Source: Terebella lapidaria
Taxonomy: Eukaryota > Annelida > Polychaeta > Terebellida > Terebellidae
Assembly (NCBI GenBank): GCA_949152475.1
Contig: OX424560.1
Location: forward strand, 2,170,001-2,234,000
Length of the DNA stretch: 64,000 nt
Reading direction: 5' to 3'
Shown: positions 18,383 through 38,370 of the stretch, one piece after another
Position numbering within the stretch: the first letter of the stretch is position 1
Layout of the letters: each line of letters opens with the position of its first letter
Program-made: the position numbers and the translations under genes
The notes under the pieces: model-generated
What the model was told of the DNA's origin: nothing
The model's input: the letters and a program-made list of their open reading frames with translations, nothing else
Database searches by the model: none

Positions 18383-20722
18383 CACACTAATCATCTTATA
18401 TCTGAACTGCTGTGTCAAGGGCATATTTCACCAAGATTAATAGTTAGCTTTAAATGATGCTATGGTACACCAAAGTGGATAATTTTATCACGCCTATAGA
18501 AGCCACAACTACAAATGAAAAACTGGATTGATAATTTGACGAACTGTTTATACATATTGTGACATTGGGTTGGGTTTGACCATAACAAACTGGATTCTTC
18601 TGTAAAAAAATGATATTATGTGTGTCTGTCTGATTCTAGATTGTATGTTATCAATGATTCACTTGTGGAAACATATATTGTGGTGCATAACTTTCGATTG
18701 TGCACCTTACTACAACCCTCACGTTCCTATTGAATTTAGTACGTCTGGTATATACTAGTATTAGTATACTAGTATTAGTTTCGAATCCATGATGAGGCGA
18801 TATACTCAAATACGATAAAAACGGCCCATGGATAGACGCGTTTGTCCGATCCTGCTGTCAGAGGGCAGAATTTGTTTTGAAAATATTAGTCTCAACCATC
18901 AGGTGGAAGCAATCCCTCAAAAATTATTTCCGTTAGTTTGTATAACGTTTCCAAATTTATCATGCCTGATAACCGCAATATAGTGCGAGTCTTTCGATAG
19001 TTTTGACCGACCAGACAGCGGCTCCCGTGAAATTCCCCGATTCCGTGATCCACGATATGACTCGTTCATCATCATCATTGCTTGAGCACTGTTCCGGAAG
19101 ACATCGTTCTTGAATGAAAAGGTTCATGGCCGGACAGTTATGTTATTGGTCGGGAAAAGTTTTGTTAAAAAATTGTCGCACGTAACGGATACCGCTCAGC
19201 GATGTTTCCTATTCCACTGGCAGTGATAATTTTTGCAGAAACCCAATGCAAAAGCAAAGCTCTAACACGCAACCTCATTGGCCGATTTGTTCCTAGGAGA
19301 GCGATAGCTGCTTTAGCCAGCCAATCAAGCACATCGTATCAACTGATTTTCACCGGTATAATAGCGCACATCAATAACTTGTAGAAGTTAACACTCTTTT
19401 GTCTTTTCAGCAGCAATTTGACAATAGCTTCAATAATATGAAATTTGTATTTATCAACATCTGTTCCGATCAAACCCACATAATCTTTATGGGATTGCCT
19501 TGACATGACAGCTAGTTGAAAACTAGCAAAAGGGATCAAAACGTCACAATCTATGTATTCATTTTCTGGGCACCGATGTCAGGGTGAACAATGCTACGCG
19601 GACATATGTTTTATAAAGGATTTTTGTATTCGATGTAGTTACGAAATATTTCAGCCAAAATATTGTTTGGAAGTCAATATCAATATACAGATGTTAGATG
19701 CATGTTAAATTTATATTTAATAGTTACCATGCATAACTTGTTTTTGATTTGAGAGCGTGGGGGTTGTGGGGATTTGGAATTAATATGATCTGGAAATTGT
19801 TCCGTTTCATGCCTGGAAAGTCCTTGATTTTGTTACCCCCAAGTGTGGGAACCCTGTGACTGTATTTGCAGAAGGTTATGACTCCTTTAGTTCAGACTCA
19901 AAAAATTCCCCGGTGCCCTCACACTGGAATCAAGCTACGCACTGCTCAGAGGCGACACATGTCTTTTACTGCATTTCCTGACGCTTACTTGTATATAAAT
20001 GTGATATGGCCACAATGAATCACAAAATCGACATATACATGTATAATATAATGTATAATGTAATATGTTGCCGATATCTTCATACCCATTTGAAGTTTAT
20101 CATAACTTGCCTGTCATGCACTATCTACATCACCATTATTGGGTCCCACTGTTTCTGTCTTTGATTCCTCGAATGGAACCATCTCCCAGACGTTACGGCA
20201 TTTGATGTCCCGAGTTTGTGCACCCAACATCAGCTGGATCAGTGGGCAAGTAGTTAGTGATGAATTTTTGTCTATTAAATTACGGCGCAAATACAGAAAA
20301 AATATATCATTACTATTTTATATTCTATACAAAATAGTAATCTGTTTCTGTGTGGAATAATGAATCCTGGATATTGTTGTGGTGATTTGTTTCAACCCAT
20401 CATAGAGATGCGTATGCATCTGCCATACATCTGCAATATCCCGCACAGTTGTTCTTGGGTGCTCACGTGTACACTCTGCAGATGGCAGCACACCGTGTAA
20501 TAATTACATAACAAGGATATATTATTATAGCACAAATGGATAAGGACAAATTCAACCCAATGTGTGTCAGGACGCGAAAGATATGTTATGGACAAAGGCA
20601 TGTTGTTAACGTTGTTAACAGACGATATCCGCTAGTTACTTGGTTCCAAACCTTACGACAGTTACAATACTGTACCCTTTTGAATGAATGTATGAACATG
20701 CCCCAATAAAGACATACATCTC
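18383..20722. other. Stretch with no recognised feature
   Basis: This AT-rich sequence has no convincing open frame, RNA gene or element end, and I see no match elsewhere in the window. A short TACTAGTATTAGTATACTAG inverted stretch lies near 18752-18775. Confidence 0.6.
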
Positions 20723-21548
20723 TGCTGATTCCACAACCGCCAATCCCTGTACTCACAACTCTTCTGTACTGTGACGTCACATGGTCTCTTGGGATGCTAC
20801 CGTTGCTTATTCCACAGCCGCCAACCCCTCTACTCATAACTGTTCTGCACTGTGATGTCACATGTTGTTTTGGGATGCTACTCCTGCTAATTCCACAGCC
20901 GCCAACCCCTATACTCATAACTCGTTTGTACTGTGACGTCACATGGTCTGTTGGGATGCTACCCCTGCTGATTCCACAGCCGCCAACCCCTATACTCATA
21001 ACTGTTCTGCACTGTGATGTCACATGTTGTTTTGGGATGCTACTCCTGCTAATTCCACAGCCGCCAATCCCTATACTCATAACTCGTTTGTACTGTGACG
21101 TCACATGGTCTGTTGGGATGCTACTCCCGCTGATTCCACAGCCGCCAATCCCTATACTCATAACTCGTTTGTACTGTGACGTCACATGGTCTGTTGGGAT
21201 GCTACCCCTGCTGATTCCACAGCCGCCAACCCCTATACTCATAACTGTTCTGCACTGTGATGTCACATGTTGTTTTGGGATGCTACTCCTGCTAATTCCA
21301 CAGCCGCCAACCCCTATACTCATAACTCGTTTGTACTGTGACGTCACATGGTCTCTAGGGATGCTACTCCTGCTGATTCCACAACCGCCAATCCTTATAC
21401 TCACAACTCGTTTGTACTGTGACGTCACATGGTCTTTTGGGATGCTACCCCTGCTGATTCCACATCCGCCAACCCCTATACTCACAACTCGTTTGTACTG
21501 CGAAGTCACATGGTCTGTTGTGATGCAACATCTGCTGAATCGACAGCC
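20723..21548 (+). repeat. 81-bp CRE-bearing minisatellite, array 1
   Basis: About ten units of 81 bp each contain CCACAGCCGCCAAYCCCTAT and a TGTGACGTCACA or TGTGATGTCACA core. Two unit types alternate: type a (CTCGTTTGTACTGTGACGTC) and type b (CTGTTCTGCACTGTGATGTC). Because 81 is divisible by three, long frames stay open on both strands (342 codons on minus, 270 on plus). I regard these frames as by-products of the period rather than genes. Confidence 0.9.
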
Positions 21549-22530: not shown

Positions 22531-23311
22531 GTTTGTTAGGTTACCGGACCTTTGGTCCGATAACCTATTGCCATGGCGTTGCGTCCGGCGTCCGGCCGTC
22601 CGTTGACATTTTTATCTTTGAAGTTTATGATGGAATATTTCTGAAATTTTGCACAAAAATACCTAAAAATATTTCCAGGAAAGGGTTTTTTTAGTTTTTT
22701 GATTTTCGCATTTTTTTCAAAATGGCGGCCGTTTTCGTCGAAAAATGGCCAATTTTGGACTTTGACGGTCGTTTTCTCAAAATCTGTTCAGTAACTTTTT
22801 TTCTTATCGACGCATGACACTCCTCCCATGTACCCCTGCGACATGTATAAATTTCGTTGCCCTTGAATCGCTCGAAGTGGGCCATTTTGGGCCCAAACTC
22901 GGCCCAAATGGGACTTTCCCATGTTAAATTCTCCTATGCTTTATAATGGGACACATTAAGCCTAATATCTCACTTAATATTGAGATTAGAGACTAGGAAT
23001 CAATTGTGGACATATAGGAAATGATATATGCTGAATATTCTCGTGACCTTGAATTTGACCTCTGACCTTGGTTTCAAGGTCATAGCGGCCGTTCTCGTCG
23101 AAAATGGCTAATTTTGGACTTTGATGGTCGTTTTCTCAAAATCTGTTCAGTAACTTTTTTTCTTATTGATGCATAACACTCCTCATATGTACTTCTGTGA
23201 CATGTATAAATTTCGTTGCGCTTGAATCACTCGAAGTGGGCCATTTCGGGCCCAAACTCGGCCCAGATGTGACTTTCCCATGTTAAATTTTCCTATGCTT
23301 TATAATTAAGC

Positions 23312-23857
23312 TACGGAGCCCCTGAGGTGACATACCGAAAATATTTATTAATCCGTGTGCACGGTTTACCAATCCGTGCGCACAGTTTACCAATCCGTGC
23401 GCACAATTTAACAATTCGTGGCCACGAATTAACAATCCGTGGGCACGATTTACTAATTCGTGGGCACGAATACTAATTCGTGCCCACGAATTGGTAAATC
23501 GTGCCCACGGATTAGTTATACCAATCTGTGGCCACGAAATACTAATTCGTGCGCACGAAATGTTAAATCGTGCGCACGAATTGTTAAATCGTGCCCACGA
23601 ATTATTAAATCGTGCCCACGGATTGTTAAATCATGCCCACAGATTAGTTAAGGTAATCCGTGCGCACGGTTTACCAATTCGTGGCCACGGGTTACTAATT
23701 CGTGCGCACGGGTTACTAATTCGTGCGCACGGTTTACTAAATCGTGGCCACAGTTTACCAATTCGTGGCCACGGTTTACTAATTCGTGCGCACGGTTTAC
23801 TAATTCGTGCGCACGGATTAATAAATATATCTGGTATGTCACCTCAGGGGCTCCGTA
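23312..23857. mobile_element. MITE built of 22 palindromic 21-bp units
   Basis: The terminal inverted repeats begin TACGGAGCCCCTGAGG and run about 45 bp each. They are flanked by TTAAG at 23306-23310 and 23858-23862, a TTAA-type target duplication as in piggyBac or Kolobok elements. The whole interior is about 22 units averaging 21 bp, each centred on a self-complementary CGTGNNCACG core (GCGCAC, GGCCAC, GCCCAC and GGGCAC versions) joined by AATTNNTAA-like linkers. The 21-bp period keeps frames open on both strands (repeats such as NRAHELV); I do not consider them genes. A related host site without the insertion lies at about 22935-22955. Confidence 0.9.
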
Positions 23858-23867
23858 TTAAGCCTAA

Positions 23868-24840
23868 TATCTCACTTAATATTGAGATTAGAGACTAGGA
23901 ATCAATTGTGGACATATATAGGAAATGATATATGCTGAATATTCTCATGACCTTGAATTTGACCTTTGACCTCATTTTCAAGGTCACAGGACAAAATGGC
24001 TAATATCTCACTTATTATTGACTTTACAGCTTAGAAATCAATTGTGAACATATAGGAGAGGATATATGCTGAATATTCTCGTGACCTTGAATTTGACCTT
24101 TGACCTCATTTTCAAGGTCACAGGACAAAATGGCTAATATCTCGCTTAATATCGACTTTACAGCTTAGGAATCCATTGTGAACATATAGGAAATGATATA
24201 TGCTGAATATCCTCGTGACCTTGAATTTGACCTTTGTCCTCATTTTCAAGGTCACAGGACAAAATGGCTAATATCTCGCTTATTATCGACTTTACAGCTT
24301 AGGAATCAATTGTGAACATATAGGAAATGATATATGCTGAATATTCTCGTGACCTTGAATTTGACCTTTGACCTCATTTCCAAGGTCACAGGACAAAATT
24401 GCTAATATCTCGCTTATTATCGACTTTACGGCTCAGGAATCAATTGTGAAGATATAGGAAATGATATATGCCGAATATTCTCGTGACCTTGAATTTGACC
24501 TTTGACCTCCTTTTCAAGGTCACAGGACAAAATGGCCAATATCTTGCTTATTAGCGACTTTGCAGCTTAGGAATCAATTGTGAACGTATAGGAAATGATA
24601 TATGCTGAATATTCTAGTGACCTTGAATTTGACCCTTGACCTAAATTTCAAGGTTAGTCATTTTATTTTCAAGGTCAGAATACAAAATGGCTTATATCTC
24701 GCTTATTATCAAATTTACAGCTTAGGGGTCCATAGTGAACATATAGGAAATGATGTATGCTCAATATTTTGGTGATCTAGAATTTGACCTTTGATCTCAT
24801 TTTCAAGGTCAGAGAACAAAATGGCTAATATGTCGCTTAT
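23868..24840 (+). repeat. 134-bp tandem array of nuclear-receptor-like half-sites
   Basis: About seven units of 134 bp begin at GGAATCAATTGTGAACATAT (near 23898, 24032, 24167, 24301, 24435, 24569 and 24725). A typical unit holds TGACCTTGA, then TTGACCTTTGACCTC, then TCAAGGTCA. On the other strand the middle word is AGGTCAAAGGTCAA, a direct repeat with one-base spacing (DR1). Four units have it exactly (near 23955, 24090, 24359 and 24490). Binding is inferred from motif only. Confidence 0.9.
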
Positions 24841-24848
24841 TATCATCT

Positions 24849-25367
24849 TTACATCTGCCCCTGATGACGCCAGTGTGTCTTTGGATAAACTATTTGGTCG
24901 GGCTTCGTTTCTATTGCAAAATGTTGTATTTTACGTTTCTTATTGGCGTCATCAAAATTTGATTGTATTGGTGGTAATAGATTGATACTTACATTTATAC
25001 CACTGAGTCGGTATCACTGCTGGCGGACGTTAAATCTGTCCCCGAGGATACCATCAACTCAGTAGCCTTCGGGCTTGTGATTGGGTACTTTTGTACTTGT
25101 CATGTATCTATTCCATGGGGTTAGATTCGGATTTCTAAATTATTTTCATAGGTTGTTGGGCAGTTGTATACTAATTCCATCTGGTGTACAGTAGAAACAA
25201 CTACATTTAACACATTGTCTGCCCCTGAAGACGCCAGTGTGTCTTTGGATAAACTATTTGGTCGGGCTTTGTTTGTTTCTATTGCAAAATGTAGTATTTT
25301 ACGTTTCTTATTGGCATCATCAAAATCTGATTGTATTGGTGGTAATAGATTGATACTTACATTTACA
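24849..25367 (+). mobile_element. 364-bp family, 1.4 tandem units inside element X
   Basis: The copy begins TCTGCCCCTGATGACGCC at 24848 and repeats at 25208, ending at the family terminus AATAGATTGATACTTACA. Flanking words TTTACA appear on both sides, as expected for a short target duplication. It interrupts one 134-bp unit of the array, so it is younger than the array. Confidence 0.75.
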
Positions 25368-32869: not shown

Positions 32870-33665
32870 ATGTGATGTCACATGTTGTTTTGGGATGCTA
32901 CTCCTGCTGATTATACAGCCGCCAATCCATATACTCATAACTCGTTTGTACTGTGACGTCACATGGTCTCTTGGGATGCTACCGCTGCTGATTCCACAGC
33001 CGCCAATCCCTATACTCATAACTCTTCTGCACTGTGATGTCACATGTTGTTTTGGGATGCTACCCCTGCTGATTCCACAGCCGCCAATGTATACAGCAGT
33101 GGTATACTCATAACTCTTCTGCACTGTGATGTCACATGGTCTGTTGGGATGCTACTCCCCCTGATTCCACAGCCGCCAACCCCTATACTCAAAACTCGTT
33201 TGTACTGTGACGTCACATGGTCTCTTGGGATGCTACTCCCGCTGATTCCACAGCCGCCAATCCCTATACTCATAACTCGTTTGTACTGTGACGTCACATG
33301 GTCTCTTGGGATGCTACCCCTGCTGATTCCACAGCCGCCAACCCCTATACTAATGACTCGTTTGTACTGTGACATCACATGGTCTGTTGGGATGCTACTC
33401 CCGCTCATTCCACAGCCGCCAATCCCTATACTCATAACTCGTTTGTACTGTGATGTCACATGGTCTGTTGGGATGCTACTCCCGCTCATTCCACAGCCGC
33501 CAATCCCTATACTCATAACTCGTTTGTACTGTGATGTCACATGGTCTGTTGGGATGCTACCGCTGCTGATTCCACAGCCGCCAACCTCTATACTCATAAC
33601 TCGTTTGTACTGTGAAGTCACATGGTCTGTTGTGATGCAACATCTGCTGAATCGACAGCCATCAT
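32870..33665 (+). repeat. 81-bp CRE-bearing minisatellite, array 2
   Basis: About nine to ten units are of the same family as 20723-21548, with the same type a and type b variants. One unit (about 33080-33110) carries a small insertion 'tgtatacagcagtggta'. Frames stay open on both strands (226 codons on minus, 301 on plus). The sequence after the array (CGACAGCCATCATGTGGT) is nearly identical to that after array 1. Confidence 0.9.
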
Positions 33666-36724: not shown

Positions 36725-37016
36725 CTTGCCATTATCGCATTTAAAAGTGCTTAAAATGAAAGATAACGAATCGAATGAATGAATGAACATGAACTTCATT
36801 TTACATGCTTAAATGTACACATTCAAGTTGACACTTTAGCGACAGGGAAATAGTCTGTTGGTTTAGCAGGCTGGCATCATACAAAATGTACACAGGTCCC
36901 CGGGGGGAGGGTATATTATGTGAAAGGACTGCAGAATATGACTGGTGGATGTTTTTTATCATCTATAACCATGATCTATAATGGCCATCAATTGTGGTAG
37001 CTCCTATAGGTGTAAA

Positions 37017-38187
37017 TGTAAGTATCAATCTATTACCACCAATACAACCAGATTTTGATGATTCCAATAACAAACGTAAAATACAACATTTTGCAATAGA
37101 AACAAAGCCCGACCAAATAGTTTATCGAACGACACACTGGCGTCATCAGGGGCAGACAGTGTGATAGATGTAGTTGTTTCTACTGTACACCTGATGGAAT
37201 TAGCATACAACTGCCCAACAACCTATGAAAACAATTTAAAAATCCGAAACTAACCCCATGGAATAGATACATGACAAGTACAAAAGTACCCAATCACAAG
37301 CCAGAAGGCTACTGAGTTGATGGTATCCTCGGGGACAGATTTAACGTCCGCCAGCAGTGACACCGACTCAGTGGTATGAATGTAAGTATCAATCTATTAC
37401 CACCAATACAACCAGATTTTGATGATTCCAATAACAGACGTAAAATACAACATTTTGCAATAGAAACAAAGCCCGACCAAATAGTTTATCGAACGACACA
37501 CTGGCGTCATTAGGGGCAGACAGTGTGATAGATGTAGTTGTTTCTACTGTACACCTGATGGAATTAGCATACAACTGCCCAACAACCTATGAAAACAATT
37601 TAAAAATCCGAAACTAACCCCATGGAATAGATACATGACAAGTACAAAAGTACCCAATCACAAACCAGAAGGCTATCTGAGTTGATGGTATCCTCGGGGA
37701 CAGATTTAACGTCCGCCAGCAGTGACACCGACTCAGTGGTATGAATGTAAGTATCAATCTATTACCACCAATACAACCAGATTTTGATGATTCCAATAAC
37801 AAACGTAAAATACAACATTTTACAATAGAAACAAAGCCCGACCAAATAGTTTATCGAACGACACACTGGCGTCATCAGGGGCAGACAGTGTGATAGATGT
37901 AGTTGTTTCTACTGTACACCTGATGGAATTAGCATACAACTGCCCAACAACCTATGAAAACAATTTAAAAATCCGAAACTAACCTTATGGAATAGATACA
38001 TGACAAGTAAAAAAGTACCCAATCAGAAGGCTACTGAGTTGATGGTATCCTCGGGGACAGATTTAACGTCCGCCAGCAGTGACACCGACTCAGTGGTATG
38101 AATGTAAGTATCAATCTATTACCACCAATACAACCAGATTTTGATGATTCCAATAACAAACGTAAAATACAACATTTGGCAATAGAA
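37017..38187 (-). repeat. Tandem array of a 364-bp retroposon-like unit
   Basis: Three full units begin at 37017, 37381 and 37746, plus a partial one from 38103. On the minus strand each unit ends at AATAGATTGATACTTACA and is joined to the next by TTCATACCACTGAGTCGG. It interrupts block B copy 3 where copy 1 (about 16003) has nothing. Other copies in the window (16757-17047, 24849-25367, 47168-47303, 60745-60925) share the same 3' terminus but start at different points. This behaviour points to a 5'-truncating retroelement. Short open frames (SAPDDASVS.DKLFGRALFL) recur but prove nothing. Confidence 0.85.
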
Positions 38188-38370
38188 ACACATGTAACTC
38201 ATCTATCAGCAGAAACATCTATCTGTAATCATCTGGACAATGTTGCTCGAAATGTCGATTGCTTTCTCCATAGCAACGGAGCGCCACTCCACGAATGTTG
38301 GTGCAAACACGCCATCTAAGAAATGGGATTTTGAGAAAGCAAATCGGTGGACATTTTCAGTTCGTCCACA

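Follow-up and report, generated by a model that had tools for sequence, protein, structure and literature searches.

Many short subterminal binding sites, present at both ends and overlapping the promoter, are a feature of the plant transposons En/Spm (TnpA) and Ac. These CACTA and hAT elements resemble the family described here in having subterminal arrays at both ends, but their short motifs are irregularly spaced, with no fixed two-turn array, and their transposases are different. Foldback elements such as Tetris, and the tandem-repeat MITEs of the clam Donax, reportedly have inverted ends or bodies composed of tandem repeats. Their repeat units are said to be longer and the elements to belong to other superfamilies. 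The piggyBac and piggyBat elements have a TTAA target and a transposase unrelated to the rva_4 type considered below. They provide the closest mechanistic precedent, since palindromic transposase sites lie inside their tips and are dimer-bound, both monomers contributing one C-terminal domain each to the binding of the piggyBac palindrome (PMC11707139). According to the same source, several systems need arrays of transposase sites, and up to three palindromes are present per end in piggyBac/piggyBat, in contrast to arrays of up to ~36 units in the present family (PMC11707139). The accessible description of the IS3EU/GingerRoot superfamily gives TA..TA termini, 6-bp target duplications and an rve-like DDE core without an N-terminal HHCC motif, with the first catalytic D at 100–300 residues from the N-terminus; subterminal dyad arrays, in which the present family differs, are absent from those parts of the description (PMC10045372). 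Mollusc tandem repeats linked to IS3EU offer a likeness of description: one source labels the oyster satellites CgiSat35 and CgiSat47, with 690- and 129-bp monomers, as DNA/IS3EU and gives the 21-bp CgiSat43 no transposon label (PMC8268682).

The window, meaning the whole 64-kb stretch of DNA that was analysed, contains a short transposon whose body is an array of dyad units. Its features are listed below in window coordinates, with the strand given for the two inverted repeats.

23306..23311, left target-site duplication TTAAGC; the identical 6-mer is on the right side, and the empty site on C9 has the word once
23312..23857, whole non-autonomous transposon (MITE), 546 bp, TACGG...CCGTA; defined by end pairs and duplications across copies and by the empty site (205/206)
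23312..23353, plus strand, left terminal inverted repeat, 42 bp, reaching the first core; matches the reverse-complemented right end at 39/42 positions
23354..23509, array block 1, units 1–8, 21-bp period, CGTGNNCACG cores; cores from 23354 to 23500, spacing 21 with one of 20
23510..23526, first 17-bp junction, creating a 27-bp interval (from core spacing); it rotates the next block through roughly half a helical turn
23527..23641, array block 2, units 9–14; cores from 23527 to 23632
23642..23658, second 17-bp junction, creating a 27-bp interval (from core spacing)
23659..23815, array block 3, units 15–22; cores from 23659 to 23806
23816..23857, minus strand, right terminal inverted repeat; its 42 bp equal the left end of the 12.5-kb element described below (by eye)
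23858..23863, right target-site duplication TTAAGC; from the sequence and the empty site
23864..24853, host tandem repeat with a ~134-bp unit, to the right of the MITE; found as a tandem-repeat array, of which a copy on C9 is the empty site

The boundaries 23312-23857, the count of 22 units and the near-perfect inversion of the ends had been proposed in an earlier note on this DNA and were borne out. The first letters of the element are TACGGAGCCCCTGAGG, and the other end is their inverse. All 17 occurrences of the pattern CGTGNNCACG in the 64-kb window fall within the MITE, and the remaining five of the 22 cores have one or two mismatches to it. The earlier note had taken all cores to be self-complementary, but the palindrome is not complete in every core, the central two bases being self-complementary in only 14 units (CG in nine, GC in five). 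Of the 21 intervals between cores, 18 measure 21 bp, one 20 bp and two 27 bp. The proposed two-turn spacing thus holds for 18 intervals, but not every core lies on the same side of the helix: the two 27-bp intervals rotate the middle block (23527-23641) by roughly half a turn with respect to the outer blocks.

Elsewhere in the window, a frame on the minus strand at 28390-29292 matches DDE_1 (PF03184, 1e-16) and DDE_3 and is a transposase remnant, which we take to be pogo/Tigger-like. Two arrays of an 81-bp tandem repeat, the unit of which is a multiple of three, are located at 20722-21548 and 32871-33660, and frames of 226–342 aa run over both of them on both strands. A 365-bp tandem repeat at 37015-38190 (3.2 copies, 97 % match) suggests a recent expansion.

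The MITE is inserted in a host tandem-repeat family with a unit of ~134 bp, and another copy of this family, on C9, represents the empty site. When compared with the joined flanks of the window, the empty site matched at 205 of 206 positions and contained TTAAGC a single time, while this 6-bp word is present once on each side of the MITE. Together with the duplications found across copies, this supports the view that the element moved as one piece. The 1600 bp around the MITE (window 22812-24411) are 100 % identical to C6:2139696-2141295, 53 kb upstream, where the copy (L084) is flanked by TTAAGC too. The stretch either underwent segmental duplication very recently or is present twice through an assembly error, so the two copies represent one insertion.

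Exact 16-bp ends were found 561 times (275+286) in the 761.6-Mb genome, and 25-bp ends with at most three mismatches 1070 times (517+553), with no match to the reversed-pattern control in either case. Hundreds of copies are therefore present, and the outcome that the earlier note had named as its refutation, the absence of any other copy, did not arise. The exact patterns gave 0 matches in viral contigs and prokaryote genomes. End pairs were compared in 51 elements, consisting of the window copy and 50 from 60 C1 loci; these loci derive from 100 of the 561 exact-end places, 98 of which are on C1 (94 within the 60 loci and four, from 84.78 Mb on, outside them). No end pair was obtained from 14 of the 60 loci, and four of these were later resolved and kept out of the 51: L012 and L013 (a nested copy), the L042/L079 copy, which has the duplication ATTGAC (by eye), and L045 (the 12.5-kb element). 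Further copies (L069–L076, L084 and L085) were also kept out, and L023 and L024 have common flanks, so they are not independent within the 51. The nested copy occupies a 16.8-kb stretch (C1:4647933-4664730) that was considered as a transposase partner and rejected as a MITE copy interrupted by a Gypsy-type LTR retrotransposon, with the duplication AATATA (by eye). In the surrounding sequence (L077–L078, C1:4646001-4666000), the retrotransposon splits the MITE near its left end, and the left end with its adjoining sequence is present twice, 3.5 kb apart.

The 51 elements range in length from 115 to 1226 bp, with 43 of them between 373 and 732 bp, and have 2–35 units each. The 27-bp interval recurs in them (72 of 932 intervals), and many have one common layout of unit orientation (by eye), as if they were copies of one design with units gained or lost. 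The best-scoring match of the window MITE among the 50 others was 92.1 % over 534 bp.

An exact 6-bp duplication abuts TACGG/CCGTA in 33 of the 51 end pairs and a further eight are one base off, giving 41 with at most one mismatch; in the other ten the flanking words are mismatched at three or more bases. Shuffling of partners produced a mean of 0.64 and a maximum of five duplications in 2000 shuffles, and exact duplications of 4, 5, 7 or 8 bp were found in 0 of 51 pairs. The 33 exact words are mutually different, with A or T in 30 of 33 at each of positions 3 and 4. The earlier note had read a TTAA duplication at the window copy. The actual duplication is TTAAGC, TTAA is directly present on both sides in 0 of 51 pairs, and the empty site agrees. 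A MITE mobilised by a piggyBac or Kolobok transposase with a TTAA target, to which the window copy lends itself because it happens to adjoin TTAA (within TTAAGC), is scarcely credible, having been refuted by the copies: the duplications are 6 bp long and varied, the empty site has TTAAGC once and the transposase linked to the family, described next, is of the rva_4/rve type. The proposed kinship to piggyBac/Kolobok falls with it.

The genome was searched with the Pfam family rva_4 (PF24764), and one of 133 matches was 0.6 kb from an exact array unit. The transposase-encoding partner is an element of 12,502 bp at C1:45529028-45541529 (L045/L101), with the ends of the family (one mismatch in 16 on the right), the 6-bp duplication AATTAT and a 21-bp array inside both ends, both arms being oriented alike relative to their own tip. 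Its array leads into a transposase gene on the minus strand, which in this copy is split over two frames. The transposase of this element matched rva_4 with E=3e-25 (over the cut-off) and rve with 0.001 (under the cut-off). A further comparison of the linked transposase gave E=2e-25 for rva_4 and 0.004 for rve (under the cut-off), and the IS3 NCBIfam matched with E=0.007 (far under the cut-off). Block 3 of the window MITE has the unit orientation of the right arm of this element (compared by eye). However, the left arm of the MITE has an inner end, CGAAAATATT, unlike that of the 12.5-kb element, and its units are oriented in the opposite direction, which indicates that the window MITE is no simple deletion copy of this partner.

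Three more close copies of the transposase were detected by protein search, with 98, 97 and 94 % identity over the matched part. The end TACGGAGCCCCTAAGGTGACATACC and an array precede the ATG in all four close copies (L101, L103, L104 and L105), at an end-to-ATG distance of 425, 299, 299 and 425 bp, respectively, a difference of exactly six 21-bp units, and the last core is 16 bp from the ATG in L101, L104 and L105. Because 21 is a multiple of three and the unit has few stops, a reading frame is open through the array into the transposase in these copies; translated upstream of the ATG, it yields a repeat of seven residues such as ISKPCAR, which is probably incidental. Putative catalytic residues in L103, chosen by eye as a motif, are D135-58-D194-40-E235. 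Across lineages, the first 55 residues of the transposase are conserved and look like a helix-turn-helix domain by eye; no HHCC motif was seen in the N-terminus (by eye), and a PDB sequence search with the transposase core gave 0 matches.

Other observations were made at these loci. L103 contains a 1.44-kb element (L103:1253-2689), in which both ends with their arrays enclose an unbroken frame covering the transposase N-terminus and DDE core and joined to the array of the other arm; both ends are present and no target duplication is visible. A plus-strand frame in the 12.5-kb element, opposite the transposase (L101:1-702), has a HECT-type ubiquitin-ligase domain (PF00632, 6e-7, above the cut-off), and the element also has a 303-aa frame with no family above the cut-off. 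Just beyond the HECT frame is a stray end-like sequence on the minus strand (L101:752-767), with 15 of 16 bases of the family end and the orientation of the right end of the 12.5-kb element. A separate genome search with the IS3 family NF033516 gave 75 scored matches, mostly long frames of the LTR-retrotransposon-integrase type, as judged by frame length, and was set aside.

From 139 genomic transposase matches, the four close loci and 12 distant stretches were examined, picked from the ranking and not at random. For nine of the more distant copies (47–59 % identical), 1.5 kb upstream was inspected, and a 19–23-bp tandem array of at least three copies was present in seven; for three still more distant lineages (43–46 %), 661 bp each was inspected. 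In total, 8 of the 12 loci, from nine more distant lineages, have an upstream 19–23-bp array, in letters other than those of the window family: ATTTCGTTCCCTCGAAATAG in L106/107, GTTCGCTCAATATAATATATC in L108, TTATATCTCGATAATATCGAC in L110/111, TCGACTTACGTATCTCGATAAA in L114 and ATTAAATACGCGTACTTAAT, repeated 12.4 times downstream of a TACGG, in L122. The array of L109 is weak and of low complexity, and no tip was recognised there; L113 has 2.4 units and L112 two units adjoining the tip, while L121 and L123 have no array within the 661 bp, the L123 stretch being possibly intronic (by eye). The period varies from 20 to 22 bp and is not strictly 21. Clear arrays are present in six lineages (the window family, L106/107, L108, L110/111, L113/114 and L122). 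Among control tiles, arrays were found in 0 of 30 at LTR-integrase loci, in 1 of 42 in the window, which is the window MITE itself, and in 3 of 29 others from loci chosen for bearing the ends of the window family, to which all three arrays belong.

The tips of three sister lineages, TACGGAAGCG, TACGGAAGAGG and TACGGAGCCCCTAATA, are of the TA..TA form and recur in the genome with 344+323, 180+154 and 107+88 matches at no more than one mismatch (control 0). Long end pairs enclose transposase matches at C2:16041694-16050375 and C1:42243387-42253210, and in these two sister elements arrays are also present at the transposase-distal ends (L119 and L120). Arrays are also present in three sister-lineage MITEs, one per lineage (L116–L118), whose duplications, read by eye, are of 6 bp in L117 and L118 and 7 bp in L116.

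These distributions bear on two alternative readings of the array. The first holds that it is the regulatory region of the transposase gene, acted on by host transcription factors or by the transposase itself, and only a passenger in MITEs. The array reaches close to the ATG in all four close copies and, because it does so, must form a promoter-proximal or 5′ leader region; its CGTG half-sites resemble bHLH-PAS sites, which would suit host factors. However, the array is also found at the transposase-distal end in three elements (L045, L119 and L120), and the differing letters of the sister lineages are ill-suited to one host factor. We consider this reading unlikely as a replacement for a docking role, with which it is nevertheless compatible. 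The second takes the array for a selfish satellite without a role, produced within a MITE by slippage or unequal exchange. The unit number of 2 to 35 and the shift of the end-to-ATG distance by whole units indicate that the array does expand and contract, as such a satellite would. This explanation nevertheless needs the array to have originated separately in several transposase lineages, each time in the same place and with a similar two-turn period, and such arrays were absent from all 30 tiles at LTR-integrase loci, so that it appears distinctly improbable.

When a periodic array equals its reverse complement, each period contains two dyad axes, which in this case are separated by about one helical turn. 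When the dyad of the consensus unit was compared with letter shuffles, nominal P values were 0.010 for the window family (16/21), 0.027 for L110/111, 0.038 for L114 and 0.005 for L122 (18/20), with no significant dyad in two of the six lineages (L108, P=0.19; L106/107, P=0.35); the Fisher combination over the six lineages was 1e-4. L106/107 was tested on its commonest unit, and a rarer, fully palindromic variant chosen by eye (0.002) and another variant (0.09) were not counted. In sister MITEs, neither the array of the L117 right arm (P=0.135) nor that of L118 (P=0.17) had a significant dyad. A pooled test of strand symmetry gave P=0.0002, but it pools units of both orientations and was set aside in favour of the per-lineage tests, because mixed orientations alone add symmetry. 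In 656 units that were not selected on their own core, eight core positions were 85–99 % conserved, the central two ~51 % and the spacer 44–98 %. Palindromic centres were in excess (0.567 against 0.425 expected), a comparison between units that are copied from one another and so are not independent. In several dyads, two CG steps lie at a distance of 8 or 9 bp from each other (CGTGNNCACG, CGTTCGAACG, CGATTTATCG and CGATAATATCG, by eye), which may be what is left of a shared recognition rule.

A third alternative is that the palindromes act through DNA structure, either as Z-DNA in CGTGCGCACG or as cruciforms extruded from the whole element. Single-strand folding of 23311-23859 gave −214.7 kcal/mol, compared with −76.7 (sd 5.0) for 100 shuffles (z=−27.8), but any inverted dyad array folds strongly. 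The alternation of purine and pyrimidine that the earlier note had pointed out is real in CG-centred units, but these make up only 9 of the 22 units in the window copy and 322 of 983 in the 51 elements. Sister arrays such as TTATATCTCGATAATATCGAC and ATTTCGTTCCCTCGAAATAG hold approximately the same period without alternation. A structural role is thus very improbable, and Z-DNA is unlikely as a general explanation, since sister lineages have the same layout in units that do not alternate.

The window element is short, has inverted ends and many similar copies, and its body consists of array units, as expected of a MITE. Termini, duplication and domain, rather than a tree or Repbase sequences, point to IS3EU/GingerRoot as its family: TACGG...CCGTA in the window MITE and the 51 pairs, with TA..TA tips in the sister lineages; the 6-bp duplication, exact in 33 of 51 pairs and supported by the empty site; and an rve/IS3-like DDE transposase with no HHCC and D135 as its putative first catalytic D, found in elements with these ends and this array rather than in the window copy. 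The earlier note knew of no named family built in this way. The termini and duplication do fit a named superfamily, but no description of the array architecture was found among the titles and abstract openings listed. These included no account of a two-turn dyad array with lineage-specific letters, which may be described elsewhere, and full-text searches with the unit and end sequences returned only papers unrelated by title. A MITE of the IS3EU/GingerRoot superfamily is ordinary; the interesting part is the recurrence of two-turn dyad arrays with changing letters.

The reading that we favour, with a probability of about 0.68, is that the array is a docking platform for the transposase in an IS3EU/GingerRoot-like family, of which the MITE is a non-autonomous member moved in trans. 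We infer that a DDE transposase of the rva_4 type would recognise the TACGGAGCCCC...GGGGCTCCGTA ends, make the 6-bp duplications and mobilise the MITE. The body of the MITE would then correspond to the subterminal region of the family, with tandem dyad units that recur every two helical turns (21 bp), and the MITE would retain only the tips and the platform. Transposase dimers may bind successive dyads, probably through the helix-rich N-terminal domain, and dimers aligned on one face of the DNA would gain avidity, could form a filament or multimer at each end and might help to pair the ends. At the transposase-side end the bound array may also repress transcription of the transposase's own gene; such self-repression is plausible because the array in coding elements would lie over the promoter or leader. 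Against a platform, the piggyBat account states that an extra subterminal site can restrict, and not help, transposition (PMC11707139).

More tentatively, and at slightly less than even odds, IS3EU-like transposons in this genome may follow a common rule, in which an array of dyads about two turns apart is placed between the tip and the transposase gene, with spacing kept and letters specific to the lineage. The letters would then be an address code that changes with the N-terminal domain of the transposase and keeps the enzyme and MITEs of each lineage separate. If the array is a docking site, six lineages of this genome offer a natural series in which each protein is paired with its own DNA array, the period staying close to two turns while the letters change, and co-change of transposase and ends would be directly testable. 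It would likewise be testable how a transposon is kept from mobilising the MITEs of its relatives, and why tens of subterminal sites, and not two, are retained in some transposons. A docking role would also explain how a 546-bp element made almost entirely of palindromes can be mobile, since the parts kept are those that would be recognised.
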